Below are positions 12,880-53,513 of a DNA stretch of 64,000 nt, piece after piece. Every line of letters starts with the position of its first letter. Within the stretch, counting starts at the first letter, position 1. Both the position numbers and the translations under genes were made by a program. The notes below the pieces were generated by a model. That model worked only from the letters and a program-made list of their open reading frames with translations, did not search any database and had not been told where the DNA came from. The stretch comes from a virus. The stretch is taken from IMG/VR virus record IMGVR_UViG_3300036985_004568, positions 1 through 64,000 of that record. One strand, given 5' to 3'.

Positions 12880-13697
12880 ATTTCGTAGGACTTAAATCTA
12901 TATTATATGAATTAAAATTAATTGCAAGTAAAACCAGCACATTTCCACATTCCCTCTTCAAAGGTCCGAGGGGCTGTGGTAAAACTGTACTTAGTAGGGA
13001 AATCGGTAGAATAACTCATCAGAGATTTATTGAATTGAATGCTCCTGCGCTTGATAAGAAACGTTTATATGTAGTACTATTAAATACCAAGCCCAATGAT
13101 ATTATTTTTATTGATGAGATCCACAGGCTTACTCCTGTAGTTGAAGAAATCCTATATCAACCTATGGAATCAAAAATGTTAACCATACCCTGTGGTGGAC
13201 GATTAATGACAGTCCCCTTCGTTCCCTTTACTTTAATAGGGGCCACAACCAGACCGGCATTGATTACCAAACCCTTATTATCCAGATTTAAAATTACCAT
13301 TGATATTCCTCCCTATACTACAAGAGATTTGGCGAGGATAATTAAAGGTAAATATCAAATGACAAATAGGGAAGCATTAAACATCGCGAGGCACACATTA
13401 GTTCCAAGAGAGGCACTCAATTTAGCAGAGAGGGCCCTGGCATTAGATATGGGTGTTGCTACTGGATTAACTTTCCTAAACTTTAAGGATGGTTTATCTG
13501 CAGATGAAAGAGTATACTTAAAGCAATTAGCACAAGGGGATAGCCACTCCATACAGTCGATTGCCAGTGGGATGCAATTGGAACTTGATTCCATTACCTT
13601 TTTAGAAGATCGATTATTCAAATTAGGGTATATAGAAGTAACCAGTAAGGGTAGGCAATTAACTTATCTGGGCCTAGCAAAAGCAAGGAGCCTATAA
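12876..13697 (+). CDS. ruvB: RuvB-like Holliday junction helicase ATPase
   Basis: 273 residues, slightly shorter than bacterial RuvB. Walker A G-P-R-G-C-G-K-T near residue 32, Walker B I-I-F-I-D-E-I-H-R-L near 76, sensor segment F-T-L-I-G-A-T-T-R-P near 118, L-L-S-R-F arginine-finger region near 135, and a winged-helix C-terminus (L-E-D-R-L-F-K-L-G-Y-I-E-V-T-S-K-G-R). Cellular RuvB drives branch migration with RuvA; no RuvA is seen here, so it may use the host RuvA or work alone. It pairs functionally with the RuvC-like gene at 41202. Confidence 0.87.
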   Translation: MNFVGLKSILYELKLIASKTSTFPHSLFKGPRGCGKTVLSREIGRITHQRFIELNAPALDKKRLYVVLLNTKPNDIIFIDEIHRLTPVVEEILYQPMESKMLTIPCGGRLMTVPFVPFTLIGATTRPALITKPLLSRFKITIDIPPYTTRDLARIIKGKYQMTNREALNIARHTLVPREALNLAERALALDMGVATGLTFLNFKDGLSADERVYLKQLAQGDSHSIQSIASGMQLELDSITFLEDRLFKLGYIEVTSKGRQLTYLGLAKARSL

Positions 13698-14785
13698 TGG
13701 TATTTTCAACGCTATACGCTAATGCAAGTAACGGTAAGATAAAGATGTGGAGCATTGAGGCTGATGGTAATACTATGATAATTCGTAGTGGATATGAGGG
13801 TGGAAAAATGGCCGAGCAAAGAAAAACCATTGTGGGTAAGAATATTGGTAAAGCCAATGAAACTTCAGATGGACAACAATGTCATTTGGAATGCAAATCT
13901 AAGTGGCAGAAGAAGATAGATGAACAATACTGTGAAGACCGTATGAAGATTAAGGAATATGGTGAACAAGAGATATTACTTCCTATGTTGGCCTTGAACT
14001 TTAGAGATAGGGAACACGACATTAAATTTCCCTGCTATGTCCAACCTAAAATTAATGGAGTAAGGTGTATCTATCAAGGAGATAAGTTTATATCCCGTAA
14101 AGGAAAAGAATATACAACTCTCAAGCATCTTGCTATAGAATTAAAGGAACTTGGAATCACTATGCCGGATGGAGAGATTTATGTTCACGGAATGGCCTTT
14201 CAAGAGATAATCCGTAGGGTAAAAAAAGATCGGGGTGTAAAGACACAGGCCTTAGAATATTGGATTTATGATCAAGTTAATGATCAGAAGTTTAAGGCGC
14301 GTAATGATGAAATTAGTAATAAATTTAAGGATTATTTTATCCAGGCTCCTAGTATTAGAAAGTGTAAGATAAAATATGTTGAAACTGTTTTAGTTAACTC
14401 TAAAGAAGAAATTAAACAATGGCACGGTAAATTTGTACAGCAGGGATTTGAAGGAGTAATTATTCGTAATGTGGATGGATTATATAAAGTGAAGCATCGT
14501 TCTCAGGATCTCCAAAAATATAAGGAGTTCTTTGATGCTGAATTTGAGATTGTAGGTTATCACGAAGGAACGGGTACGGATGATGGAACAGTTATATTTG
14601 AAGTAAAAACTAAAAAAGGACAAGTATTTAGTGTCCGGCCCAGGGGAACACATGAAGTAAGGTCGGAGTATTTGGAGGACATTTCTAGCATCATTGGGAA
14701 AGAACTTACAGTTAGATATCAAAACCTTAGTGAGGAAGGTATTCCAATTTTTCCAGTGGGAATATCTATTAGAGACTATGAATAA
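13697..14785 (+). CDS. ATP-dependent DNA ligase with WGR-like N-terminal region
   Basis: 362 residues, coupled to RuvB by a TAATG overlap. Residues 1-75 resemble the WGR-type module that precedes some phage ligases (L-Y, W-S-I-E, G-K-N-I-G-K-A-N-E-T). The nucleotidyltransferase domain has motif I K-I-N-G-V-R near residue 117, motif III P-D-G-E-I-Y near 155, motif IV E-G-V-I-I-R near 252 and motif V Y-K-V-K-H-R near 262; the OB domain ends the protein. Seals nicks during replication and recombination, using ATP and the motif I lysine. Confidence 0.87.
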   Translation: MVFSTLYANASNGKIKMWSIEADGNTMIIRSGYEGGKMAEQRKTIVGKNIGKANETSDGQQCHLECKSKWQKKIDEQYCEDRMKIKEYGEQEILLPMLALNFRDREHDIKFPCYVQPKINGVRCIYQGDKFISRKGKEYTTLKHLAIELKELGITMPDGEIYVHGMAFQEIIRRVKKDRGVKTQALEYWIYDQVNDQKFKARNDEISNKFKDYFIQAPSIRKCKIKYVETVLVNSKEEIKQWHGKFVQQGFEGVIIRNVDGLYKVKHRSQDLQKYKEFFDAEFEIVGYHEGTGTDDGTVIFEVKTKKGQVFSVRPRGTHEVRSEYLEDISSIIGKELTVRYQNLSEEGIPIFPVGISIRDYE

Positions 14786-14960
14786 AAGAATGATCTGCAT
14801 ACATAGAACTGAGAAGTGTGTAAGAACAGAATGTGTACATTGCGTACCACATGAAGAGAGACTAGGTATATGTGATAGAAAAGCGTGTGGCTATGCCTTT
14901 AATCAAAAAGCACATTGTAAAGTACTAACTAAAACAGAGTTAATTATTGAATCTTACTAA
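14778..14960 (+). CDS. Cys-rich tail-family protein
   Basis: 60 residues, ATG overlapping the end of the ligase gene by eight bases. M-I-C-I-H-R-T-E-K-C-V-R-T-E-C-V-H-C-V-P-H, then I-C-D-R-K-A-C and H-C-K-V-L-T-K-T-E-L-I-I-E-S-Y. A clear member of the group at 4551-5870, eight kilobases away. Likely zinc-binding; function unknown. Confidence 0.76.
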   Translation: MNKRMICIHRTEKCVRTECVHCVPHEERLGICDRKACGYAFNQKAHCKVLTKTELIIESY

Positions 14961-14970
14961 GGAGGTTACA

Positions 14971-15261
14971 ATGAATGCTCCAATTATTGAACAAGGCAGT
15001 AATAATCTTTTTGCAGAACAAGTACCAGAACAGGTTGGATTGGATTTAAAGTGTCCTGGATGTGGAAACAACCTTACAATGAATGATAAGGGATTGGTAT
15101 GTCCCGTATGTGATAAAGAAAAGAAGGTATTGGTAAAAAAGCATTGGTTATTCGGATACAAGGTTATTGAAGCACATAATGTTTTTTGTGGGGAATATCT
15201 AACCATTGAACAGTGTGAGGAACTTACTAAAAAGGGAGTAGACATTAGTGTTAAATACTAA
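14971..15261 (+). CDS. Zinc-ribbon protein
   Basis: 96 residues from ATG 14971 after AAGGAGG; the frame upstream to 14947 lies in the previous gene and is rejected. L-K-C-P-G-C-G-N and V-C-P-V-C-D-K form a four-Cys ribbon at residues 29-50. No tail motif. Possible nucleic-acid binding. Confidence 0.7.
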   Translation: MNAPIIEQGSNNLFAEQVPEQVGLDLKCPGCGNNLTMNDKGLVCPVCDKEKKVLVKKHWLFGYKVIEAHNVFCGEYLTIEQCEELTKKGVDISVKY

Positions 15262-15478
15262 ACTATTTAAAGCATATTTAGTTGAAGTAACTGATGAAGC
15301 TTCCTTTTTGGAGAAGCACATTGTTATACTATTACTACAACCCACATTGGACTCAGTACCAACTATCTTTGATTATACGGAACTAAAAATAATTAGAACT
15401 GATAGTATCTATAAACTTATAAAAGAAATTAAGATGCCTAAGGATGCCGAGGCCAGGTTATTATTAACCTATTATTAG
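15248..15478 (+). CDS. Small protein with tail-like end
   Basis: 76 residues from a GTG overlapping the previous TAA by 14 bases. A beta-rich body with two predicted strands (AYLVEVT, HIVILLLQP) and the end M-P-K-D-A-E-A-R-L-L-L-T-Y-Y, which keeps the Glu, hydrophobic run and terminal Tyr of the tail family. No Cys. Function unknown. Confidence 0.6.
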   Translation: MLNTKLFKAYLVEVTDEASFLEKHIVILLLQPTLDSVPTIFDYTELKIIRTDSIYKLIKEIKMPKDAEARLLLTYY

Positions 15479-15480
15479 GA

Positions 15481-15624
15481 GGGGTTCTTTTCATAAAACA
15501 GTTTGTACCCTATCCTGAAAATTGGTTACATTTAGATATTGCCTCTTCTGCTTTTGGTAAGGATGGTAAGGCCAATGGGGCGCCAATAAAAACATTAATT
15601 AAATTTATTGAAGGGTTAATATAG
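15481..15624 (+). pseudogene. Fragment resembling the C-terminus of leucyl aminopeptidase (M17)
   Basis: An open frame with no ATG, GTG or TTG start encodes about 47 residues reading F-I-K-Q-F-V-P, then P-E-N-W-L-H-L-D-I-A-S-S-A, G-A-P-I-K-T-L-I-K-F-I-E. This matches by eye the last 45 residues of M17 leucyl aminopeptidases (F-L-x-x-F-V, W-x-H-x-D-I-A-x-x-A, G-A-T-G-x-x-V-R-T-L). The catalytic residues of M17 enzymes lie upstream and are absent. AGGAGGGG at 15477 sits before an ATA codon at 15493, so translation from a rare start is conceivable; otherwise it is a captured relic. Confidence 0.55.
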
Positions 15625-15626
15625 CA

Positions 15627-15803
15627 ATGGCCAAAGACATGATCTGCCCGGGATATAAAAAATGCCACCCTACAGCTTGTGCTTGTAGGGAGTTGCATGA
15701 ACAGGTCCACATATGTACTTCTTTTACCAGATGTCCTGAAGTAAATAGAAGAATTATATGTCGTAAGGCTACTAAAGAAGAAAAAATATATTTTAACTAT
15801 TAA
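15627..15803 (+). CDS. Cys-rich tail-family protein
   Basis: 58 residues. M-I-C-P-G-Y-K-K-C-H-P-T-A-C-A-C-R-E-L-H, then I-C-T-S-F-T-R-C and I-I-C-R-K-A-T-K-E-E-K-I-Y-F-N-Y. It has the same order of Cys, His and tail elements as the genes at 4986 and 5685. The 143-codon minus-strand frame over this region is a shadow. Confidence 0.75.
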   Translation: MAKDMICPGYKKCHPTACACRELHEQVHICTSFTRCPEVNRRIICRKATKEEKIYFNY

Positions 15804-15812
15804 AGGACAAAT

Positions 15813-15977
15813 ATGAAGAATAGAATATGTCCACGTTATAAAAAATGTAAAGAAGTCTGCTATCATAAAACAGTCCATGAAGTGGAAGACGGATGTGGGT
15901 ATAAATGTACCCCTAATGGAAAGATTGTAAACTGTAGACAAGCTACAATGGGAGAAATAATTATAGCGAATTTCTAA
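15813..15977 (+). CDS. Cys-rich tail-family protein
   Basis: 54 residues, ATG behind AAAGGAC. R-I-C-P-R-Y-K-K-C-K-E-V-C-Y-H-K-T-V-H, then G-C-G-Y-K-C and V-N-C-R-Q-A-T-M-G-E-I-I-I-A-N-F. The closest relative is its direct neighbour at 15627, suggesting tandem duplication. The 16-nt-type promoter follows its stop. Confidence 0.75.
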   Translation: MKNRICPRYKKCKEVCYHKTVHEVEDGCGYKCTPNGKIVNCRQATMGEIIIANF

Positions 15978-15981
15978 TTCT

Positions 15982-16000
15982 GGTATATAATATATAATAG
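15982..16000 (+). promoter_or_regulatory. Variant of the 16-nt promoter-like element
   Basis: GGTATATAATATATAATAG: the GGTATATAATATATA core is identical to the four exact copies, with AT inserted before the final AG. It lies 20 bases before the GTG at 16021 and has no TTGACA-type box 17 bases upstream. Confidence 0.6.
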
Positions 16001-16020
16001 GAACACTAAAAGGAGGAAAT

Positions 16021-16179
16021 GTGATTAATTTAACAAAAGAGCAGGTAAAATTAGGATGTAAGGCAGTAAGTATTATATTGGCAGTTATAGGCTTAGGTAT
16101 AATTTTTAAAACTAGTCCTATTGCCGTGGTATTAGTAATAATGGGTGTTGTTGGTTTTTACTTCTCAGATAAACCCTAA
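16021..16179 (+). CDS. Small two-helix membrane protein
   Basis: 52 residues from GTG behind AAAGGAGG. Two hydrophobic segments (residues 14-29 and 33-48) with a short loop, resembling small holin-like or membrane-stress peptides in size, but too short to assign. First gene after the element at 15982. Confidence 0.6.
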   Translation: MINLTKEQVKLGCKAVSIILAVIGLGIIFKTSPIAVVLVIMGVVGFYFSDKP

Positions 16180-16192
16180 ATCGGAGGTACTA

Positions 16193-17257
16193 ATGTCTCG
16201 TGTATTTAAAAGTATTATTGCCGGGTTAATTCTTATTGCTTTAGCTTTACAGGCCAAGTTCTTACAAGGAATAAATAATAAACTGTCATTTATGGACCAA
16301 GGACAGAGCATTATTACTTATGATTTAGATATACTTAATAAGAATTTACTAAATACTAATAATAATGTAATAGAAGGAGCACAGGCCACATTTGAATTAA
16401 ATAATGTGATGGTTAAAATTATGCAGGCAATAGATGGAAATAGTGTGGAACGGGATAATCAATTAACTGTTCAATTAGATAAATTAGTGGAATCTCTTGC
16501 CAAAGAAATTAAACTTAATAAAATACGAGATGCTTATTTAGCCAAAGTAACTAATTTTATTCTTAAAAAAAACCGTGATGAAGTAATGACACAAGAATTA
16601 TTTGATAGAGAAATTGAAGGGATAAGAAAACTAATTTCCCAATCAGAAGATGCGACAAGATTAGGAAGGGAATTAATTGAACATAATATAATGTTAAGCA
16701 ATATTATGCTTTATAATAATGAGGAGGGCACACAGGGATCTGGAATTACTATTAAGTTAAAAGATAAGTATTTTATACTTTCTGCTGCCCATTTAGTCTC
16801 AAATGATAAACAAATACTACAATTAGTAGAAAATGGAATTACTGTTTGTGATGTGCGCGTGGTACGTTGGGACAAAAAATTTGACTTACTCCTATTGGAA
16901 ACAGTTGATCCAGATATACAACCAAGAGTATGGACTACAATTGCCGTTAATGAGCCTCAAAAAGGGATTGATTCAATTTATGTTTGTGGAAATCCAATAG
17001 GTCTGGAAGACGTTTTAAGTACAGCAAGGGTAATAAAATATACAGGAGATTTCTTTTATTATTTAAATCATAGTTATTTCGGATCTTCTGGTGGGGGAAT
17101 ATTTAATATATCAGGAGAATTAGTTGGTACCATATCCCACTTGATTGCAGTTGATCCTACACCAGTAGGAATTGTAACGCAACGCTCCCCCATGTTTGTA
17201 ATTCATGGAGCTACGCGTACTCAAGCTATTCATAAATTCTTGGAAGGACTAGAGTAA
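16193..17257 (+). CDS. Membrane-anchored trypsin-like serine protease
   Basis: 354 residues from ATG 16193 behind CGGAGG. N-terminal transmembrane or signal segment (residues 6-22), a long helical stalk (about 40-165), then a chymotrypsin-fold domain with the triad H200 (L-S-A-A-H-L-V), D231 (F-D-L-L-L-L-E) and S299 (G-S-S-G-G-G). A HtrA-like PDZ domain is absent. Presumably acts at the outer face of the membrane or in the periplasm. Targets unknown; possibilities are processing of phage surface proteins or attack on host defence or receptors (inference). Phage-encoded trypsin-like proteases are uncommon. Confidence 0.83.
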   Translation: MSRVFKSIIAGLILIALALQAKFLQGINNKLSFMDQGQSIITYDLDILNKNLLNTNNNVIEGAQATFELNNVMVKIMQAIDGNSVERDNQLTVQLDKLVESLAKEIKLNKIRDAYLAKVTNFILKKNRDEVMTQELFDREIEGIRKLISQSEDATRLGRELIEHNIMLSNIMLYNNEEGTQGSGITIKLKDKYFILSAAHLVSNDKQILQLVENGITVCDVRVVRWDKKFDLLLLETVDPDIQPRVWTTIAVNEPQKGIDSIYVCGNPIGLEDVLSTARVIKYTGDFFYYLNHSYFGSSGGGIFNISGELVGTISHLIAVDPTPVGIVTQRSPMFVIHGATRTQAIHKFLEGLE

Positions 17258-17260
17258 ATT

Positions 17261-17335
17261 TGCGGGGTGACGCATTGGTAGCGTGAAAGGCTCATAACCT
17301 TTAAGTAGGAAGTTCGATTCTTCCCCCCGCTTCCA
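17261..17335 (+). tRNA. tRNA with CAT anticodon (Met, or Ile if modified)
   Basis: Acceptor GCGGGG pairs with CCCCGC, T at position 8, D arm ACGC/GCGT, anticodon arm AAAGG/CCTTT with loop CTCATAA (anticodon CAT at 17293-17295), T arm GGAAG/CTTCC with loop TTCGATT, and an encoded CCA at 17333-17335. The 1-72 pair is T-T. The anticodon stem has two, not three, G-C pairs, so a typical initiator is unlikely; elongator Met, or Ile after lysidine modification, fits better. It lies inside the operon, 27 bases before RNA ligase. Confidence 0.88.
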
Positions 17336-19509: not shown

Positions 19510-19947
19510 ATGATAAAGCGAATAGTTACTGATAGAAAGATATTAAGTGTTCCTTGTGAATTAGTACTTCCAGGAGAAGACATTACACAAATAGTGCAGG
19601 ATCTTAAAGATACCTTTGAGCCCCTAAAGTCTCGGGGGTTTGGACTTGCTGCTAACCAAATTGGATATAATAAGGCAGTAGCTTATTTTATGTTTGCTGG
19701 TAAAGAGTATATACTAATCAACCCAAAGATTATAGTTAAGGACTTACCAATAGCCTTTATGGAAGGTTGTTTTAGTTTTAGTGGAATGCAGATTAAGACT
19801 AGACGATTTAACTATATTAAACTTATCAATGGCTTAGAAGTAAAGGAAGAAGAATATAAGGGATTACTTGCTATAATAATTCAACATGAATGTGACCATT
19901 TAGTGGGTTTAACTATCCTAGATAAAAAGTGGAGATCGAGTAACTAA
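19510..19947 (+). CDS. def: Peptide deformylase
   Basis: 145 residues. All three family motifs are present: G-L-A-A-N-Q-I-G (Q50), E-G-C-F-S (metal ligand C87, in place of the usual E-G-C-L-S) and H-E-C-D-H (H126, H130, catalytic E127). Removes the formyl group from nascent proteins at the ribosome exit. It is shorter than host enzymes, lacking the C-terminal helix, like known phage deformylases. May sustain maturation of phage proteins late in infection. Coupled to the next gene by a TAATG overlap. Confidence 0.9.
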   Translation: MIKRIVTDRKILSVPCELVLPGEDITQIVQDLKDTFEPLKSRGFGLAANQIGYNKAVAYFMFAGKEYILINPKIIVKDLPIAFMEGCFSFSGMQIKTRRFNYIKLINGLEVKEEEYKGLLAIIIQHECDHLVGLTILDKKWRSSN

Positions 19948-20421: not shown

Positions 20422-20766
20422 ATGAATAATTCTCAGAAGAAGGATATGGTAACTGTATTAAAAGTCTGGTTAGTATGGACGGTACTATTTTTACTATGGC
20501 TTATATTTACGCCAAGTACCTGTAGAGCAATGGACTTTAAAGGATATATTAATAGGCCAATTACCACTACACAGACTAAGGGGGAGCTTAGGATAGAGTG
20601 GAGTGATTTCTTTGGTTGTGATCTATTCCGCCCCTACTTTGCTATAAAAGACATGGAACGTTCCTTCACAAATTTTACAGCCTTAGATATGGGGAAACTT
20701 AAGGGAAGACTAAGATTTGGGGATGGGTATAAAACAGTAGAGTATAAATTTAAATATGAATTCTAA
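20422..20766 (+). CDS. Membrane-anchored or secreted protein
   Basis: 114 residues behind AGGAGGG. Basic start, a hydrophobic segment at residues 14-32 (WLVWTVLFLLWLIFTPSTCRA) that may be a signal peptide, then a beta-rich domain of about 75 residues. The Cys near the end of the hydrophobic stretch is not in a convincing lipobox. No family recognised. Confidence 0.62.
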   Translation: MNNSQKKDMVTVLKVWLVWTVLFLLWLIFTPSTCRAMDFKGYINRPITTTQTKGELRIEWSDFFGCDLFRPYFAIKDMERSFTNFTALDMGKLKGRLRFGDGYKTVEYKFKYEF

Positions 20767-21925
20767 TAGCAAAATGAACCCTAAAGTTAAATTAGTTTTT
20801 GGACTATCCATATTGACTTATTTTCAACAGGGAGTTGAGGGACTTCCTGCGCAAGGTCTATTCGTGTTCATGAAGACTAAGCTTGGCATGACTCCCCAGG
20901 CTATTATGTGGTTTGGCACATTTATTGGAATAGCATGGCTTATAAAGCCCGTTTTGGGGGCAATTATTGACAGGTTCTTTGGCAAAAAATGGTGGTATTT
21001 TGGGGCTGTTTTGCTAAGTATGGTAACTTGTGCCTTCTTAGCTAAATTAAGCCTACCTATCATCTTCCTAGGATGTTTACTGGCCCTTTTAAGCACTGCT
21101 GCCAGTATCCGGGATATATCTGTAGATGGAATTGCAGTATGTGCTGGTAAAGCTAATGGTATCTGTGACAAACTACAATCTGTACAGTGGATCGCGGTTA
21201 CAGTAGGTAGTCTCTTGGTAGGTATAGGGGGAGGTTATATTGCACAATATTTACCCTATCAAGTAGGATTTATGATATTGATTCCAATATATGCTTTAGC
21301 TGGTTGCCTAATTTTAAAATATAAACCTGAAGCGGAGCAAACCAAAGTAACTTTTGGATCAGTATTGGTGTTATTTAAAGATAAACGGTTTATTCTAACG
21401 TGCTTATTTATCTTTCTATATAAATATAGCCCTTCATTTGGTACTCCCTTGGGATTTATTATTCGGGATAAGTTTAAGTGGTCAGAAATATTTATTGGAT
21501 TTCTTGGAACAATAACTGCAGTGATGAGTATCATTGGAGCCTTAATATATTATAGAATTTCTAAAAAGATAGACCCCAAGAAATGGATTACTATTTCCAT
21601 CTGGTTAGGGGCAATTACTACATTACTGTACCTTTACTATACTCGTTATACTGCAGTAGGTTATGATGTAGTATTTAGTTTAACTGGAATGTTTTTTCAT
21701 CTAATAATTATGTCTTGGATGGCGGAGAATTCAGTAACTGGACTAGAAACTACATCGTTTGCAACCCTTTGTGCCATTAGTAATTTAGCAGGAACGGCTG
21801 GAAGTGCATCGGGAGCATGGTTACTTCCAATTATAGGACTACCCGGATTAATTATTCTATCAGCAGCTACGTCATTTTTATGCTTACCTTTAGCACCGAT
21901 TATATTTAGAAAGAATAATGAATAA
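20756..21925 (+). CDS. MFS transporter, BT1 / folate-biopterin-like
   Basis: 389 residues with about 11-12 hydrophobic helices. The opening Y-F-Q-Q-G-V-E-G-L-P-A-Q-G, L-G-M-T-P-Q-A and W-L-I-K-P-V-L-G-A-I-I-D resembles the BT1 branch of the major facilitator superfamily (folate, biopterin and related solutes), where K-P and a D in loop 2-3 are typical. Located in the inner membrane. The substrate is not determinable by eye. A full-length nutrient transporter is unusual in a phage and could maintain uptake in infected cells. The start overlaps the preceding gene and lacks a clear ribosome binding site. Confidence 0.76.
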   Translation: MNSNSKMNPKVKLVFGLSILTYFQQGVEGLPAQGLFVFMKTKLGMTPQAIMWFGTFIGIAWLIKPVLGAIIDRFFGKKWWYFGAVLLSMVTCAFLAKLSLPIIFLGCLLALLSTAASIRDISVDGIAVCAGKANGICDKLQSVQWIAVTVGSLLVGIGGGYIAQYLPYQVGFMILIPIYALAGCLILKYKPEAEQTKVTFGSVLVLFKDKRFILTCLFIFLYKYSPSFGTPLGFIIRDKFKWSEIFIGFLGTITAVMSIIGALIYYRISKKIDPKKWITISIWLGAITTLLYLYYTRYTAVGYDVVFSLTGMFFHLIIMSWMAENSVTGLETTSFATLCAISNLAGTAGSASGAWLLPIIGLPGLIILSAATSFLCLPLAPIIFRKNNE

Positions 21926-27208: not shown

Positions 27209-27576
27209 TGCGCCTACTCATATGTGGAGACCGTAACTGGAAAAATAAGGAATTAATCTTAAATGTTATTAGGGCTATAAGACCTAAGCCTAAAGTTGTA
27301 ATATGTGGTGGTGCCAGTGGCGCTGACACTCTTGCAAAAGAAGTGGCTCTAGAGTTGGGGATTCCAGTTAAAGAATTTATGGCAAATTGGGCACAGTTTG
27401 GTAAGGCAGCTGGCCCAATGCGAAATAAACAAATGTTGCAAGAAGGCAAGCCCACGTATGTTATTGCCTTTCATGATGATATAAAGAACTCTAAAGGTAC
27501 GGCTCATATGCTTTACATTTCTAAGTATTATAAAATACGTACAACTTTATATACTACGAGAGGAATTGAAAAATGA
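27208..27576 (+). CDS. SLOG-domain protein, YspA/DUF2493-like
   Basis: 122 residues. L-L-I-C-G-D-R-N-W opening, I-C-G-G-A-S-G-A-D near residue 33 (nucleotide-binding loop), F-M-A-N-W-A-Q-F-G-K-A-A-G-P-M-R-N near 60-76 and V-I-A-F-H-D near 86. Matches the cpYpsA-related SLOG family, Rossmann-like proteins thought to bind nucleotides or NAD-derived ligands and often tied to phage-host conflict. Exact ligand unknown. Coupled to the primase-helicase by a four-base overlap. Confidence 0.82.
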   Translation: MRLLICGDRNWKNKELILNVIRAIRPKPKVVICGGASGADTLAKEVALELGIPVKEFMANWAQFGKAAGPMRNKQMLQEGKPTYVIAFHDDIKNSKGTAHMLYISKYYKIRTTLYTTRGIEK

Positions 27577-30500
27577 TTAAGAACCTCGGATCCACTTTAG
27601 AGACTTTAAAACCTTTTCTTAGGAAGTACCTACTGGTTAAAGGCACACAGTTTAAGGGTAGGTTGTTCTCCTGTCCTAATAAACAGGCTCATAAAAACCT
27701 GGATATTAAACCAGGTTGTAATTTTCTGGATAAAGAGGAAACTAAATTTTATTGCTATGTTTGCCTCCCCGGGCATGAAGAAGTAAGGACCTCATTAGGG
27801 CTTAAACCTATTAAAGATCTACTTATAGGGGAAAAGGTATATACAAGACTGGGACAAGAGACAACCCTTATTAATAAAGTAAAACATGATCCCCAGTATG
27901 CTATCATAAATTTGCAAACCGGCCTTACTCCTATTGGCCATAGTATGACCCAAAATCATGCGATTCCCATAATTAAACAAGAGCAAGTATATACAATGCC
28001 CTATATTGAATTAATTCCAAATAGGTATAAATTTTCTAGTAGGGCCTTTTATAGAAACCATATTTCTAAATATACTGATGTTTTAAATATCTTTAAAGTG
28101 CCCGCTAAAGATATTAGAGTTGGGGATTATTTATTATATCCAGAAACTAGACATATTACCGATTACTCTAAAATCTATACAGATAGAATAATTAAAAAAT
28201 ATACAAAAGGCCCCATGAATAAACGTATTACAAAAATTCCACTAGAGGACGACATTTTATGGATGTTTGGTCTCTATATTGCAGAGGGTAATACATATAG
28301 AGGAGGGGTAAGGTTTACTTTACATAAAAATGAAACTGCCTATCAAATAAAATTAAAGCAAATTTTTAAAACATATTTTGCTAAAGACTTAGTTGAGCGC
28401 GTTCATAATAATTCTTGGACTGCTACTTGTTCATCTACAGACCTAGAGCTTATTTTTAGAGAATTATTTAATGATTTAGCAGAAAATAAAATATATCCAT
28501 ATTTCTTTAATTATCTCCCTATTGATAAGCGGCATGCCTTATTTTCTGGAATAATGGCTGGGGATGGATCTAAAACAAGAGAATTTATTAAAATAACTAG
28601 TTCTGCCCTGATTGCACAATTATTTGATTTAGGTATATCCTTACATAAAATCCCTAGTTATCAAGAATACCCAGAATATACGGATAACATGGGAATTAGG
28701 CATTTAAAAACTTATAGTCTTTCTTTTATAAGACCCTCACTCAGGGGATTTTTTGAGACTATTGAAGGTGTTACTTATTTATTACAACAAGTAACTAAAA
28801 TTTCCTTATGTGGACAGGAGCCGGTATATGATATAACCGTAAAAGATCAAGATCATTCCTTTGTTGGAAAATTCTTTACTTTTTATAATTGTGGCGCATC
28901 TGGTGATATCGTAGATGCAGTACATCTTTTAGAGGCTAGACCTATAACTGGTTCAGGTTTTCATGATACAATAGAATACTTATGTAAGTTAGTTAAGGTA
29001 CCATTTGAATTGGCTGAAGAGACCCCAGAGTCTAAATTTATGCAAGAGGTAGAGGCCTTCTTGGGTGCTTTAGTGTCCAAAGCCCATACTAATCTTAAAA
29101 ATTTAGTAGTTACTCAGCCCGAACATCCGGCGGTTAAACTATTACAGACTAAGGGATGGTTAAATAGTGTAGACACCTATAAACTTGGATTGATCCAAGC
29201 GGTTAAGGAGAATAAGTCCCAGAAATTGATGGATGTTTGTAACTTTTTAAATTTAGACCTTAATCACTTAGTTAATGGTATTATTATTCCAATTGAGTTT
29301 AAGCATAAGTTAATAGGATTTCAGATCAGAGCCACTGATTTAAATACATTAGGGGGCATGAAGTATAAGACTTATTTATCTACTAGTAAAGGATTGTTTA
29401 ACCTAGATAATATTGATGCCTCCCAACCAGTCTATATAGTAGAAGGGGCCTCATCTGTTATAGTTATGCATAACTTTGGAATAGACAATGTTGTTTCTAC
29501 CTTAGGTAACGGATTAAATGAATCCCACTATGAGGCATTAATTTCTAAGGATGTTAAAGATGTATGTGTATTATATGACAATGATGAAGGTGGAGAGTTA
29601 GGTAGAAAACGGGGTTGTGAGACATTTGTAGGTAAGGGCGAGATCAAACTAAACTTCAAACTATTGTCTAAGGAGAATGACCCGGCCGATTATGTGTTGG
29701 CAGGTAATAAATTAGAAACTTTACCAACATTAACTTTATGGGATTACCTTTTACACAAAGGATATAAAGAGTTGATGTTAAAGTATGTAGCAGCACAGCA
29801 GGATTTAATTGATAAAGAGAAGTTGGTTAATATACTAGCTAAAGAACTAGATGTTCCTAAGAGCATACTCTTGGAAGAAATCCATAAGTATGAAAGCACA
29901 ATAAGTGAAGTTCCCACCATCATGTCTTTAAAAGAGAAGGAAAGTATTATTGAGACTATTAATACTTTCGAAAAATGGGCATGGAGTCGTGGGGAATTAC
30001 TGGGAATAAAATCATTTGATTGCTTTGATAAATGCTTTGATGGATTACAGGAAGGATTGATTTTGGTAGGTGGTGCGCCTAACGTAGGAAAATGCTTAAG
30101 TGGGGAGACTCTTATCCAAACTACTTTAGGGTTAGTTCCGATACAGAACCTATTTAAAGAAAAAAATAAAGTAATAGGTACATTTACTAATCCTACAGAT
30201 AAATTCTCAGTTCCCGGCCCACTTAGTTTAGAGCCAGTAACCAAACTTTATTATACAAAAAGTAAATGTTATAAGGTAATTTTAAATAATGGCCGAGAAA
30301 TTATAGGAACGCCAGAACATCCCCTCTTAACTAATATTGGGGTATTTAAACAGCTTAAAGAACTCACTTTAAAGGACCAACTAATAACTAGTAATGGGGC
30401 AAATATTTGGGGGACTAAAGTTACTTTAAATAAATTTGTGCCTTCCCAACAATTATTGGCTACTGCAACCATAATTCCTAAAATGTATCCAATAGAATTA

Positions 30501-32129
30501 ACCAAAGATTTAGCCTTTTTACTCGGATTATATATAGGAGATGGCGCATGTTTTGCTCCAGATTTTTCTATTACCCAAAAAACACCGTATAATACAACTA
30601 TAAATAAACTGATTAAAAAACTCTTTGGTATTAGGCCCCACACATATAAATTGGAATTGTCGGCAGGTAGGTTAATTCGAACCTATTTTGAGGAAATATT
30701 AGGAGTGCCCTATGTTACAGGTGGGTATAAAGAAGTCCCTTCTTGTATATGGACTGCCCCCAAAGAGGTTGTAGCTGCATTTATAAGTGGTTATTTTGCT
30801 GCCGATGGATATATAAATAAAACTAGAGTCGAGATTAGTTTAACTACAAAATCTTATAAAATGTCCCAACAATTGGCTACACTATTAGATAATTTTGGTG
30901 TAAGAAATTATATTAGGGTAGTAAATAGATGTGCATCTAATACTAAATTAAAAATTAAACGAAACTATTATACAGTTACAGTACGTGGAACCTATGAAGA
31001 TGCTGTACGTTTTAGAAGTGAAGTTTGTAGTAATCGTACGGGAAGATCCGGAAAATTCCATGCTCTAGAAAAATTAACTGGACAGTTTAATAGAAGTTAT
31101 CAGCCACTTAGGACGAATACAGGTATACGGTTTGAGCCTATGGGAATAAAAGAAATAATTTATTTAACAAAAGAACAAGAAGTATATGATATTAGTGTAC
31201 CAACAACGCACCAGTTTATTGCTAATGGCATTGTAAGTCATAATAGCGCGCTTACAACGTCAATAGCCTGTAGAATTATGGAGACCACTCCAAATCCCTA
31301 TATTATCTATTTGAGTATAGACGATTCTGCTATTATAACTACGGCTAGATTTTTAGCTAACTTATCTGGTATTCCTATTAATATTGTTTCAAATCCTAAA
31401 CATCGTATTGTTGAAAATAAGTATTATACGGATGCCGAAAGAAAAGATTTGATGGTGCGTAGAGAAAAGGCCCTAGAGTATATGCGTAAACATGTGACTG
31501 TCTTTAATTTGAAGGATGCGTCTAGTGGATATACTATTGAATATTTAAATACACTCTTTAAATCCCTAGAACCTATTATTAAAGATAAGAAGGTTGTCTT
31601 AATAGTGGATAATCTGCATAAATTACGAAGTCTTAGGGATTTTAAGAGTGATAAGTCTTTGGTGGACTCTGTATGTAGTAATTTAAAGATTCTTTCAGGT
31701 GTGTACAAGTGCCCAGTAATAGCCACTGTTGAACATACAAAGGCATCTATACAATTAGGTGAAGTTGGAGGTTCGGCGATAAAAGAGTCCTCTTCGTTGC
31801 ATTATGATGCTAATTTAATTCTGACTGTTGTGCTAAAGCAGGTGGTTGGTACCTTTAAATTGGTTGATGTAATAGTTAGTAAAAATAAAATGAGTACTTT
31901 TATTGGAGCCCTACCCTTTAGACTATATCCTGATCAAAGTAGAATGGAAGCCTGTGATGGAAATGCCTCTAACTTTGGATTACCCCAGGATGGACCTGTA
32001 TCCCAAGAAGTTAAAACTGAACCTATTACTCAAGGAGAACCTGATGGAAAAATTTCAAGTAATGGAGAAGGAAATCCTATTAATAAAGAACAAGGAACTC
32101 CAGGAGTGGGTACGGAAGAGCCTAAATAA
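27573..32129 (+). CDS. Bifunctional primase-helicase with two inteins
   Basis: 1518 residues, of which 758 remain after excision of inteins at residues 64-439 and 841-1224. The N-terminal zinc domain has C34, H40, C61 and the Cys just after intein 1; a Toprim domain follows (I-V-E-G-A-S-S near residue 623, L-Y-D-N-D-E-G-G near 668) and a DnaB/RecA-type helicase whose Walker A G-G-A-P-N-V-G-K/S is split by intein 2. Walker B is V-V-L-I-V-D-N near 1345. The plan is that of T7 gp4-type primase-helicases: RNA primer synthesis plus hexameric unwinding at the fork. Both insertions hit essential sites, so the product is inactive until spliced. The end overlaps the HD gene by 86 bases. Confidence 0.88.
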   Translation: MIKNLGSTLETLKPFLRKYLLVKGTQFKGRLFSCPNKQAHKNLDIKPGCNFLDKEETKFYCYVCLPGHEEVRTSLGLKPIKDLLIGEKVYTRLGQETTLINKVKHDPQYAIINLQTGLTPIGHSMTQNHAIPIIKQEQVYTMPYIELIPNRYKFSSRAFYRNHISKYTDVLNIFKVPAKDIRVGDYLLYPETRHITDYSKIYTDRIIKKYTKGPMNKRITKIPLEDDILWMFGLYIAEGNTYRGGVRFTLHKNETAYQIKLKQIFKTYFAKDLVERVHNNSWTATCSSTDLELIFRELFNDLAENKIYPYFFNYLPIDKRHALFSGIMAGDGSKTREFIKITSSALIAQLFDLGISLHKIPSYQEYPEYTDNMGIRHLKTYSLSFIRPSLRGFFETIEGVTYLLQQVTKISLCGQEPVYDITVKDQDHSFVGKFFTFYNCGASGDIVDAVHLLEARPITGSGFHDTIEYLCKLVKVPFELAEETPESKFMQEVEAFLGALVSKAHTNLKNLVVTQPEHPAVKLLQTKGWLNSVDTYKLGLIQAVKENKSQKLMDVCNFLNLDLNHLVNGIIIPIEFKHKLIGFQIRATDLNTLGGMKYKTYLSTSKGLFNLDNIDASQPVYIVEGASSVIVMHNFGIDNVVSTLGNGLNESHYEALISKDVKDVCVLYDNDEGGELGRKRGCETFVGKGEIKLNFKLLSKENDPADYVLAGNKLETLPTLTLWDYLLHKGYKELMLKYVAAQQDLIDKEKLVNILAKELDVPKSILLEEIHKYESTISEVPTIMSLKEKESIIETINTFEKWAWSRGELLGIKSFDCFDKCFDGLQEGLILVGGAPNVGKCLSGETLIQTTLGLVPIQNLFKEKNKVIGTFTNPTDKFSVPGPLSLEPVTKLYYTKSKCYKVILNNGREIIGTPEHPLLTNIGVFKQLKELTLKDQLITSNGANIWGTKVTLNKFVPSQQLLATATIIPKMYPIELTKDLAFLLGLYIGDGACFAPDFSITQKTPYNTTINKLIKKLFGIRPHTYKLELSAGRLIRTYFEEILGVPYVTGGYKEVPSCIWTAPKEVVAAFISGYFAADGYINKTRVEISLTTKSYKMSQQLATLLDNFGVRNYIRVVNRCASNTKLKIKRNYYTVTVRGTYEDAVRFRSEVCSNRTGRSGKFHALEKLTGQFNRSYQPLRTNTGIRFEPMGIKEIIYLTKEQEVYDISVPTTHQFIANGIVSHNSALTTSIACRIMETTPNPYIIYLSIDDSAIITTARFLANLSGIPINIVSNPKHRIVENKYYTDAERKDLMVRREKALEYMRKHVTVFNLKDASSGYTIEYLNTLFKSLEPIIKDKKVVLIVDNLHKLRSLRDFKSDKSLVDSVCSNLKILSGVYKCPVIATVEHTKASIQLGEVGGSAIKESSSLHYDANLILTVVLKQVVGTFKLVDVIVSKNKMSTFIGALPFRLYPDQSRMEACDGNASNFGLPQDGPVSQEVKTEPITQGEPDGKISSNGEGNPINKEQGTPGVGTEEPK
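27762..28889 (+). other. Intein 1 of the primase-helicase, with LAGLIDADG endonuclease
   Basis: 376 residues from Cys64 to Asn439. It begins C-L-P-G-H-E-E-V and ends K-F-F-T-F-Y-N before a +1 Cys. Two LAGLIDADG-like motifs, F-G-L-Y-I-A-E-G-N and F-S-G-I-M-A-G-D-G-S, mark a homing endonuclease. Block B is M-T-Q-N-H-A-I-P. The residue before the final Asn is Tyr, where His is usual, so splicing may be slow or use another helper residue. It splits the zinc-binding domain just before its last Cys ligand. Confidence 0.85.
30093..31244 (+). other. Intein 2 of the primase-helicase, with LAGLIDADG endonuclease
   Basis: 384 residues from Cys841 to Asn1224, ending I-V-S-H-N before a +1 Ser. Block B is G-T-P-E-H-P-L-L-T; endonuclease motifs L-G-L-Y-I-G-D-G-A and S-G-Y-F-A-A-D-G-Y are present. 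Inserted exactly between Lys and Ser of the helicase Walker A loop, a favoured site for inteins in P-loop ATPases. Confidence 0.9.
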
Positions 32130-46848: not shown

Positions 46849-48438
46849 ATGGCTGATAATAGAGTAGAAAATACCCCTCCCAGTATAGCACCAAAATTAG
46901 AAGCATTAGACTCCCAATTTAAGTTTGTTACTTATTTAATTGGAGCTATGCAGATCACTGCTGAAAAAGATGGTGGTGGGGAAAAGCGAGAAAATCTTGA
47001 TAAAGAACTTCGTTTAAGAAATGTATTTCCAATTAATCCCGTTAAACTAGAGGAATCCAAAACTGGTATGTCCTCAGAAGAGATTACTATTAAGATGAAG
47101 GGCTGGATAGCATCTGGATGTTGGGATAAATTTGGAGAACAAGCCATTAATATTTGGAAGGGACGTGATTATGTTGAAGCCAACGGAAGTCTCAAGCATG
47201 TACCCGGGGACATTGCTTACTGTACAATGTCTAGCTGGATTACTTTTAGGCTTTCTTCTGGCGACCAGCCTTGTATTGCTAACAATACTCCTATTACAAT
47301 GGCTGACTTTTCTACCAAAATGATTCAAGATATTGTTCCTGGAGATAAGATATTAGGATTTGTTAAAAGAAATAGGAAAACCTATTTAACTGAATCTACT
47401 GTTTTTGAGACGTTAGATAGGGGGATAAAAAGTACAGTGCAGTGTTTAGGGCCAAATTCATCCGTATTTGCTACTCCAGATCATCCATTTTTAACACCCA
47501 ATACACGATCTGGTTCAATTTATGCTCCAGTCAAAGATATTGGGACCTGTTTTGCCACAGATTGCAGTCCATTAACTCTAGAATTTATAAAAGGTTGGTT
47601 TTTAGGTTATACACAACATGATGGAAGTATGATAAATACAAAACATGGGGCGGCTTTAACTTTTTTGTCTAATAAGCAAGAAGAGATAAACAAGGTATAT
47701 GAAGTAATGCAGAAATTAGGACTAACACCTACTCCAGTTAAACGAGGTGGATTAAATTACAAATATTGGGTAGTTGGTACGTATAAAAGGTCCGACATTC
47801 TACTTGTACAAAAATGGCAGAATGAACTAACTGGAAAAGTGCAATTAAAAGGTTGGTTAAGTGGGAGTATTGATGCTGATGGTTATTATGAACTTGAGTC
47901 AATAAGGTACACCCAAGCAGAAGTACATAATAGGAATATAGAACAATTTAAAAAAGCACTTGAGTCTATTGGGATCAAGTATTCCCTACAAGTACGCAAT
48001 CGTAAAGGTCTATTTGGATTACGTAGTATTAATGCAACTCCGGAATACACGATTTGTATGCCGAAAAGTGTTGCTTTTACATGTCCCTCCCTATTAGCAT
48101 ATAAACGTTTAAATTTTAAGTATACTATTGATAAGTTACAGGTACCCATAACCACAATACCTGCTGGCAAGTTGCGAGTTTTTGATCTTGCTACCTCAAC
48201 AGGAAATTTTATGGCTAATGGTTTTATCGTACATAATTGTGGTTCTTACATGGAGTGTGGGATCGCTATGGAACACGGTATACCAATCTATCTTATAACG
48301 GATATACCTAAAAAAGAATTAAAGCAAAGTTTACTACAGGCAATATTAGTGACCCAAGGAGAAGTATTCAGGACTGAGAATGAATATTTACTCTTCATAG
48401 ATAAGAAGTATGATTTAAAGAGGAAAAATGCGGATTAG
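46849..48438 (+). CDS. Nucleoside 2-deoxyribosyltransferase-like protein with an intein
   Basis: 529 residues, 207 after removal of an intein at residues 142-463. Extein: Y-L-I-G-A-M-Q near residue 30, D-G-G-G-E-K-R, F-P-I-N-P-V near 60, a S-S-G-D-Q-P/C-G-S-Y-M-E-C-G-I-A motif across the splice site and I-P-I-Y-L-I-T. This is the Rossmann-like plan of deoxyribosyltransferase and related nucleotide hydrolase families, where the S-S-G-x-x-x-E motif holds the catalytic Glu. Probably cleaves or transfers a nucleoside glycosidic bond. Actual activity is unknown. Confidence 0.7.
   Translation: MADNRVENTPPSIAPKLEALDSQFKFVTYLIGAMQITAEKDGGGEKRENLDKELRLRNVFPINPVKLEESKTGMSSEEITIKMKGWIASGCWDKFGEQAINIWKGRDYVEANGSLKHVPGDIAYCTMSSWITFRLSSGDQPCIANNTPITMADFSTKMIQDIVPGDKILGFVKRNRKTYLTESTVFETLDRGIKSTVQCLGPNSSVFATPDHPFLTPNTRSGSIYAPVKDIGTCFATDCSPLTLEFIKGWFLGYTQHDGSMINTKHGAALTFLSNKQEEINKVYEVMQKLGLTPTPVKRGGLNYKYWVVGTYKRSDILLVQKWQNELTGKVQLKGWLSGSIDADGYYELESIRYTQAEVHNRNIEQFKKALESIGIKYSLQVRNRKGLFGLRSINATPEYTICMPKSVAFTCPSLLAYKRLNFKYTIDKLQVPITTIPAGKLRVFDLATSTGNFMANGFIVHNCGSYMECGIAMEHGIPIYLITDIPKKELKQSLLQAILVTQGEVFRTENEYLLFIDKKYDLKRKNAD
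47272..48237 (+). other. Intein in the deoxyribosyltransferase-like protein
   Basis: 322 residues from Cys142 to Asn463, ending F-I-V-H-N before a +1 Cys. Block B is T-P-D-H-P-F-L-T; LAGLIDADG motifs appear as G-W-F-L-G-Y-T-Q-H-D-G-S and S-G-S-I-D-A-D-G-Y, the first weakened. Inserted in the active-site S-S-G-x-x-x-E loop. Confidence 0.88.
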
Positions 48439-51296: not shown

Positions 51297-53513
51297 ATGG
51301 GTATAGGTAGCTCTTGGGAAAATTTCTTCGATAAACAGGCAAAGAACACAGCTGCTACAGCTAAGTTCATTGAAAAGCCCACTTCTCCTGAAGTATTCTT
51401 CAGGGACTGGATGGGACAACCCCTATTTCCTGAGCAGTTAAATCCTATTAATGCCATGTTTACTCCAGATCTTGAGAACCTCAATCCTGATATTAATGAG
51501 ATTCTATTAATGTTTGGAGAAGGCGCTGGAAAAGACTTTCTATGTGAGCGCATGTTAATATATGTAGCTTATTGGTTACTGTGCCATAAGAGCCCACAAA
51601 AGTACTTAGGTAGGGCTGAAGGTACGCCTATCGACTTAGTAAATACTTCCGTAAATGAAGAACATGCATCCAATGTATTCTTTGAGCAGTTCTGTGAGGC
51701 CGTAAAATTAGTTATTAATCCCATAACTGGAAAGAATTGGTTTGAAGAACAAGGTATGGATATCCGTTCTGGTAGGGATATACTCACAACTAAAGTAAGG
51801 TTTCCAAAAAATATCACCGCCTATAGTTGTAACAGTGTTAAATACACCGCTGAAGGAAAGAACGTATTAATTGGAATCCTCGACGAGATCGCAGAATTCA
51901 AGTATGATAGGGCTAAATCATTATACACCAACCTTAAAGCTACCGCTACTTCCCGCTTCCCAAACTACCATAAGATAATTTTAATATCTTATTTAAGAGA
52001 CCAGTATGATTTTATGAACAGTCACTGGAACGAGATGGAGGCTTTACCAGAATCTTTGCGTAGGAAGGTATATATGTCAAAAAAGGCTACTTGGGAAGTG
52101 AACCTAATGGTCTCTAAGGCAGATTATGCAGATGCATACGCACAGGATCCAGAAGACTCGGCAAGAAGATATGAAAATATTATGCCTAGTAAAACTGGCC
52201 AGAAGTTTATAAAGAACGGAATTAAGATTACTAATGCTGTATATGACTTTGATGGTTCTCCCATTATATCGGAAACTCCCCATGTTAGTACTAATATAAA
52301 TGAGGAGACCCTGCAGGTTTGGTTTAAGGCGTTTTATATTAAAGAAATTTATAGATTGGAGCAGGAATTAGCCCTAAGTCCCAACAGTGCAGAATTAAGG
52401 GCTAAAATTGATGCATTAAAAGATAACCATAGTGGTGCTAATTATTATATTCATATTGACTTGGCAAAAGGTGCAGTTGACTATGCTGGGTTTTGTATGT
52501 TGCATACTTATCAGAAGACTGAGTCCCAGATTGGATATTACACCGATCTAATCGTACAGTTACAGCCGGATGGCAATGAGATAAATTTTGAGCAGATAAG
52601 GGAATTTATTTTTAAATTACAAAGTATGGGATTTCCAATCGCTAAGGTCTCACTAGATGGGTGGTCCTGTCAATTAGGTACAAATAAAATAAAATTACTT
52701 AATGGCACCACTAAAAGAGTTGACGAAGTAACTCAAAAAGAATGGATTTATGCTTTTGATTCCTCCACTAATAGGATTGTCCCTGCTGAATGTAATCCTG
52801 CACGGAAAACTGGGGAAAATATAGGTTGTTATGGGTTACTTTTAGATAATGGAGAACAGGCTTCGTTTACCGCAGAACATAAAATTTTAATGTTAAATGG
52901 GACTTATAAAAGAGTAATAGATTTAATCCCAGGAGACCAAATAAGGCCTTTAGAATTTAGGGAAAAGAATATTTGGGGTGGGGGAAGTACTTATTTACAA
53001 GTCCACCAACCCTCAAATAAAACTAAAAAATGGCAATTTGTCCATAAAATTGTATCAATTACTTATATTGGTAAAAAGGATGTATATGATTTAGAAGTAC
53101 CTAATTATCATAATGTTGGCCTAGAGTGTGGAATATTTGCACATAATTCAACAGATTTTATGCAATTATTGGATAAAAGGGGAATTCCATGTGAACTAGT
53201 GTCTCTAGATCGCACTATGCAGCCTTATAATACTTTAAAGGATTTATTATACCAGGAGATACTTGAATATTATTATAACCCTATACTACTTAGGGAGTTA
53301 AATGAACTACAGATTATAAATAACAAGGTAGATCATCCTAAAGAAAGTACAGAAAGGTTAAAGGAAGAGGGTAAAAGACTGGGTTCCAAAGACCTTGCTG
53401 ACTCCTTGGCCGGTGCTGTATTTACTGCATCTTCTGCGGGTGGTTCCGGTTCAGGTTGTGTGGTAGAATTAGTGCCGGAAGAGGCCGAAGATAAGTTGGA
53501 TAAACTCTTTTAG
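51297..53513 (+). CDS. terL: Terminase large subunit with a mini-intein
   Basis: 738 residues, 578 after loss of an intein at residues 458-617. ATPase domain: Walker A-like M-F-G-E-G-A-G-K-D near residue 72 and Walker B V-L-I-G-I-L-D-E-I near 190. RNase H-like nuclease: Y-I-H-I-D-L-A-K-G near 385, V-S-L-D-G-W-S at the intein junction and D-L-A-D-S-L-A-G-A near 700, giving three Asp. Packages and cuts concatemeric DNA in the prohead with the small subunit. Inserting an intein in the nuclease core means splicing gates cutting. Confidence 0.87.
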   Translation: MGIGSSWENFFDKQAKNTAATAKFIEKPTSPEVFFRDWMGQPLFPEQLNPINAMFTPDLENLNPDINEILLMFGEGAGKDFLCERMLIYVAYWLLCHKSPQKYLGRAEGTPIDLVNTSVNEEHASNVFFEQFCEAVKLVINPITGKNWFEEQGMDIRSGRDILTTKVRFPKNITAYSCNSVKYTAEGKNVLIGILDEIAEFKYDRAKSLYTNLKATATSRFPNYHKIILISYLRDQYDFMNSHWNEMEALPESLRRKVYMSKKATWEVNLMVSKADYADAYAQDPEDSARRYENIMPSKTGQKFIKNGIKITNAVYDFDGSPIISETPHVSTNINEETLQVWFKAFYIKEIYRLEQELALSPNSAELRAKIDALKDNHSGANYYIHIDLAKGAVDYAGFCMLHTYQKTESQIGYYTDLIVQLQPDGNEINFEQIREFIFKLQSMGFPIAKVSLDGWSCQLGTNKIKLLNGTTKRVDEVTQKEWIYAFDSSTNRIVPAECNPARKTGENIGCYGLLLDNGEQASFTAEHKILMLNGTYKRVIDLIPGDQIRPLEFREKNIWGGGSTYLQVHQPSNKTKKWQFVHKIVSITYIGKKDVYDLEVPNYHNVGLECGIFAHNSTDFMQLLDKRGIPCELVSLDRTMQPYNTLKDLLYQEILEYYYNPILLRELNELQIINNKVDHPKESTERLKEEGKRLGSKDLADSLAGAVFTASSAGGSGSGCVVELVPEEAEDKLDKLF
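52668..53147 (+). other. Mini-intein in the terminase large subunit
   Basis: 160 residues from Cys458 to Asn617, ending I-F-A-H-N before a +1 Ser. Block B is F-T-A-E-H-K-I-L-M; V-Y-D-L-E-V-P and V-G-L-E-C-G-I-F-A-H-N are the C-terminal splicing blocks. There is no LAGLIDADG motif, so it is a splicing-only intein without endonuclease. Confidence 0.88.

Follow-up and report, generated by a model that had tools for sequence, protein, structure and literature searches.

What does a phage do with the last ~45 residues of a leucyl aminopeptidase? The question is raised by a stretch of 64,000 nucleotides of viral DNA (the window), in which the C-terminal tail of an M17 peptidase is encoded on the + strand at 15484-15624, in a frame that lacks a standard start codon. 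The initial annotation offered two readings of this piece, either a relic of a gene captured from the host or a retained peptide that interferes with the aminopeptidase of the host. We think that the locus is very probably what an internal deletion of ~765 bp has left of a phage-borne M17 aminopeptidase gene, with no function of its own. The features discussed below are the following, where L004 is the contig of a sister phage in IMG/VR.

15248-15478, + strand: upstream 76-aa gene with no assigned function (counterpart L004:7552-7767); its stop codon TAG overlaps the retained Shine-Dalgarno sequence
15477-15482, + strand: AGGAGG, probably the Shine-Dalgarno sequence that once served the lost M17 gene; the L004 version is TAAGGAGGAGTAAATG, 5 nt before the ATG
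15479-15486, + strand: probable deletion junction, placed within a few bases by comparison of the flanks, with small length differences at the edges
15484-15624, + strand: probable C-terminal remnant of an M17 aminopeptidase gene (46 codons and the stop TAG), equivalent to residues ~255-300 of the L004 M17 protein
15493-15495, + strand: ATA, proposed as start codon by the initial annotation; in the family this codon position is an ordinary one for Val, Ile or Leu, and L004 has GTA there
15627-15803, + strand: next gene, 58 aa, cysteine-rich, as read from the sequence; it starts 2 nt past the stop of the remnant

Identity of the M17 tail

The frame is open from 15484 to 15621 and closed by TAG at 15622-15624 (translation VLFIKQFVPYPENWLHLDIASSAFGKDGKANGAPIKTLIKFIEGLI). 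Inspection of the sequence and an ORF check found no ATG, GTG or TTG in it, in agreement with the initial annotation, and the tail is thus not a gene translatable from a standard start. A profile search with Pfam PF00883 (Peptidase_M17), in which the initial annotation would have taken the lack of a match as fatal, gave one at profile positions 267-310 of 310 with E=7.4e-5 and 22.6 bits, which is marginal and slightly below the gathering score of 25. The leucyl aminopeptidase models of NCBIfam matched with a best E of 6.8e-5 and the leucine aminopeptidases of the PDB weakly, with a best E of 0.0011. The decisive match is that to the intact M17 gene of L004, which by tblastn against a small set is 75% identical over 44 residues (E=1.7e-21; 72% when the two tails are compared), and therefore we consider the M17 identity confirmed. 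A DSS3_PM1 match from the first tail search (E 0.7) was dropped, as the annotated gene there runs on the other strand.

The homology to M17 begins at ~15484-15487, which is 5' of the proposed ATA. The tail shares the last 44 profile positions with the M17 family (PF00883; PepA, PepB, bovine lens LAP), from which it differs by having neither a start codon nor any catalytic residue: equivalents of PepA K270, D275, K282, D293, D352, E354 and R356, which we take to be the metal ligands and the catalytic Lys and Arg, all map 5' of the retained tail, and none of the seven is present in it. The catalytic part is therefore missing, as was first noticed. Nine promoter-like sites were counted near the remnant, compared with 8.1 in shuffled sequences, and a search for terminators there found none.

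An intact counterpart in a sister phage

The DNA ligase of the window retrieved 11 loci from IMG/VR, the closest of which lies on L004 (96,942 bp) and is 94% identical, and searches with the DNA polymerase and the trypsin-like protein of the window found the L004 contig alone. The regions at both sides of the tail, 13000-15240 and 15927-17257, share 80.7% and 78.7% DNA identity with L004. Between the same flanking genes, L004 holds an intact M17 gene of 300 aa (L004:7778-8680), which matches PF00883 at profile positions 74-309 with 192.5 bits and E 1.4e-56. Thus, where the window has the tail, a relative has the whole gene within collinear flanks, which is the configuration expected of an internal-deletion remnant.

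To the left of the junction, the window can be followed along L004 past the stop codon of the 76-aa gene and the AGGAGG; to the right, the match to L004 starts again at codon ~255. The corresponding points in L004 are at ~7769 and 8534, with GAGG at both, which would give a loss of ~765 bp. So short a repeat (4 bp) says little about the exact breakpoint, and the position given is approximate. Compared with L004, the start codon and all seven catalytic or metal residues are gone. In the ancestor, the order would have been as in L004, i.e., a gene of the 76-aa type, a Shine-Dalgarno sequence, a catalytic-domain-only M17 gene of ~300 aa and cysteine-rich small genes. The internal deletion of ~765 bp, perhaps between the short GAGG repeats, would have brought codon ~255 next to the Shine-Dalgarno sequence; judging from L004, the start codon, the catalytic Lys and Arg and the metal ligands were lost with it. 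The 46-codon tail left in place probably gives no protein, since at the spacing usual in this phage the ribosome-binding site has no start codon behind it. The remnant itself is an ordinary gene loss, and the phage that carries it manages without an intact M17 enzyme.

An assembly or binning artefact, with a true phage that has the whole M17 gene and a contig that skips ~765 bp of it, seems to us highly improbable. The record is metagenome-derived, and both the GAGG at the two edges and the undecayed state of the tail (see below) would suit such an error. However, a repeat of 4 bp is far below typical assembler overlaps, which are far longer, and the bases of the junction differ from those at either edge in L004, which divergence would lead one to expect. 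Moreover, a search of the whole 95,374-bp virus record holding the window found no further part of the M17 gene anywhere.

Some further features of the region can be mentioned. The 76-aa gene is only 36.6% identical to its L004 counterpart (tblastn), a fast-changing island (~37%, compared with ~80% DNA identity in the longer flanks); it had no Pfam match and a single weak PHROG match (E 0.25). The ORF at 16193-17257 has a trypsin-like protease domain (PF13365) with a long N-terminal part, and a tRNA-Met gene at 17261-17335 separates it from the RNA-ligase gene; in the sister phage the trypsin-like and RNA-ligase genes are directly adjacent (L020:9065).

Relic or retained peptide

The state of the tail was compared with that of its intact relatives. 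In an alignment of ten tails, the remnant has 3 private residues of 45, and the nine intact tails have 1-10. Its leave-one-out profile score is 94.2 bits (85.2-107.8 for the intact tails), and the pN/pS ratio with respect to L004 is 0.25, a value that mixes the time before and after the deletion, with 0.07-0.60 for eight intact neighbouring genes. The deletion is probably of recent date, given a tail without visible decay that still looks like one of the family; its timing relies on one close relative, L004. A recent deletion is the simplest reading of the undecayed tail, and constraint would fit too.

The rival reading is a retained peptide, with translation starting at the ATA or resuming once ribosomes have passed the upstream stop, that disturbs the hexamer assembly of the M17 enzyme of the host or of a rival phage. 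Besides the lack of visible decay by the three measures above, the intact frame, the strong Shine-Dalgarno sequence and the adjoining upstream stop speak for such a peptide. Against it, ATG, GTG and TTG are absent from the frame, and the Shine-Dalgarno sequence is accounted for as that of the lost gene. The initial annotation placed the ATA at the right distance, but the spacing from AGGAGG (15477-15482) to the ATA (15493) is 10 nt, which is atypical for this phage. Of 79 window ORFs of at least 80 aa, 49 had some Shine-Dalgarno sequence and 39 a strong one, and in 36 of these 39 the spacing was 3-6 nt (one each at 7, 9 and 11), although the script chooses the start with the best Shine-Dalgarno sequence per ORF, which biases the survey toward tidy spacings.

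The predicted structure argues in the same direction. When the L004 protein is modelled with AlphaFold2 (mean pLDDT 88.3), the cut falls within the helix formed by residues 251-259, and of the fold the remnant keeps one strand (268-272) and one helix (287-297); for this reason the remnant is predicted to be unlikely to fold by itself. Furthermore, when IMG/VR was scanned by alignment for similar tails, 11 contigs came up (L004 and L026-L035), all 11 with an intact gene of 297-307 aa, and the isolated form was seen in none of them, in a collection that may omit very near records. With no positive support in these results, we find a retained peptide very hard to believe. That a -1 frameshift shortly before the upstream stop joins the tail to the 76-aa product deserves practically no credit, even if the tail frame is open back into the end of the 76-aa gene, as no slippery heptamer was seen by eye in 15455-15478, the fusion product would carry a tail without the rest of its fold and the two genes are separate in L004.

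Origin of the parent gene

The relic part of the initial reading is thus retained, and its other part, the capture of a host gene, is not. The best 80 of 585 cellular relatives in a scan of genome_contigs are 31-40% identical to the L004 protein, compared with 49-54% in a group of viral proteins (L026-L035), and host capture was rejected as the immediate source. The remnant is what is left of a 300-aa M17 gene that the phage lineage itself possessed and that is part of an exclusively viral clade. Since the parent gene belongs to such a clade, the remnant does not point to a host, and the comparison of M17 families that had been suggested for finding the donor did not identify one.

Known phages were searched through INPHARED, where queries with the L004, L049, L030 and L041 proteins gave 10, 11, 10 and 11 matches, respectively, from the same small set. 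Five records of this set were checked by gene content, and none is a convincing phage with an M17 gene. Three were discarded as cellular: MT835496, by its gene content with a dihydrolipoyl dehydrogenase-like ORF (by eye), AFYI01000007, which has the order pepA-holC-valS, and CAKLQH020000023, with yjgP-pepA-holC. The other two, OR844991 and OR845427, carry no annotation. A literature search found no paper on a phage M17 enzyme. A table of a stromatolite virome contains the entry 'Leucyl aminopeptidase ... 2' (PMC6008428), and a matching table row stands in the Pelagibacter section of PMC12570018.

A viral group of small M17 enzymes

The value of the fragment is that it led to a little-described viral M17 group that is devoid of the N-terminal domain. 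An alignment scan of IMG/VR found 56 M17 loci, in 23 of which the ORF is shorter than 335 aa (mini-M17; two of these touch a contig end), with 447-526 aa in the other 33. The closest to L004 are the ten loci L026-L035, including two pairs of near-copies, whose proteins are 49-54% identical to that of L004 over nearly the whole length and whose tails are 50-78% identical to the remnant. They belong to the same viral clade as L004 and, unlike the remnant, their genes are intact, with 297-307 aa.

The L004 protein is a full catalytic domain onto which all seven catalytic or metal residues can be mapped, and these positions are invariant in the 9 viral proteins aligned. Its residue 2 aligns to residue 179 of the 503 of PepA; that is, the enzyme begins where the catalytic domain of PepA starts, and in this alignment the N-terminal domain of PepA/LAP is absent from the 300-aa protein. 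Its model matches M17 crystal structures with Foldseek TM-scores of 0.80-0.86 on the query among the 50 matches listed. The sole M17-like match in BFVD with E<1e-4 and a TM-score (query) >0.5 is the cytosol aminopeptidase of Mimiviridae sp. ChoanoV1 (A0A5B8IGY4), which differs from mini-M17 in being a full-length protein of 523 aa from a Mimiviridae virus. PHROGs v4 gave no match to the L004 protein or to five other viral M17 proteins.

In a 69-sequence tree, L004 and eight of L026-L035 form an exclusively viral group on a long branch with SH-aLRT 100. This tree was built quickly, with no bootstrap, from 41 of the 56 viral and 28 of the 80 cellular loci; these were chosen by hand, leaving out near-copies, rows at contig edges and a few more. 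Other mini groups fall elsewhere (L036/L038/L040 and L037/L041/L058/L068), and two changes to the mini state are needed on this tree. Full-length M17 genes are found on the viral contigs of L045-L047, L049-L057, L060-L067, L069-L073 and L078-L080, with a few shorter genes among the viral rows (e.g., L058, L059, L072), and the nearest cellular row to the main full-length viral group is a Pelagibacteraceae protein.

The mini-M17 contigs are regarded as phages on the basis of IMG/VR and of their phage-like neighbours. A terminase profile matched in 7 of the 23 records, many of which are fragments, and the window's own terminase was found in 1 of the 23. One of these terminase matches (G029:C1:41429-42787) holds three stop codons, one TAG and two TAA.

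Gene neighbourhood and possible role

Two further intact genes of the window have counterparts close to the M17 gene in related phages:

19510-19947, + strand: peptide deformylase (PF01327, E 7.3e-26; phrog_2890), near the M17 gene in related phages
20756-21925, + strand: MFS/BT1-family transporter, with counterparts directly downstream of mini-M17 in L027, L028 and L030

In these three contigs, the mini-M17 gene is flanked by homologues of both, and the remnant-bearing phage retains the deformylase and the transporter. The cluster peptide deformylase, M50 peptidase, mini-M17 and MFS/BT1 transporter spans 1857-6997 in L027 and 2570-6590 in L030. Peptide deformylase occurs in 8 of the 23 mini-M17 records, a count that includes the near-copies G012/G015 and G013/G014, and all 8 are within the 11 of the close group. 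It was found in none of the 10 ligase-related records without M17, which come from more distant phages and form a weak control.

Judging from the family and the neighbourhood, the most likely task of the intact enzyme is to trim N-terminal residues or small peptides, and peptide deformylase would possibly have taken off the formyl group beforehand. Within such a cluster, mini-M17 may serve for trimming deformylated N-termini or for recycling peptides during infection. We tentatively propose, with doubt slightly outweighing belief, that phages carry their own ancient catalytic-domain-only M17 lineage, in some of them within a small protein-maturation cassette made up of the genes of this cluster, and that the phage with the remnant is a natural deletion mutant for which the enzyme is a losable accessory. 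Sister phages with and without the gene provide a natural experiment on the purpose of a phage aminopeptidase. In addition, a minimal M17 catalytic domain would be useful to probe the role of the N-terminal domain in assembly and regulation.

Beyond the M17 locus, the window terminase (51297-53513) has an intein-looking insert of ~160 residues (roughly 458-616), whereas that of the sister phage is without it and its two matches abut. Seeming intein-like inserts were also noticed by eye in the translations of a 1518-aa helicase/primase-like ORF (27573-32129) and of a 529-aa ORF (46849-48438).
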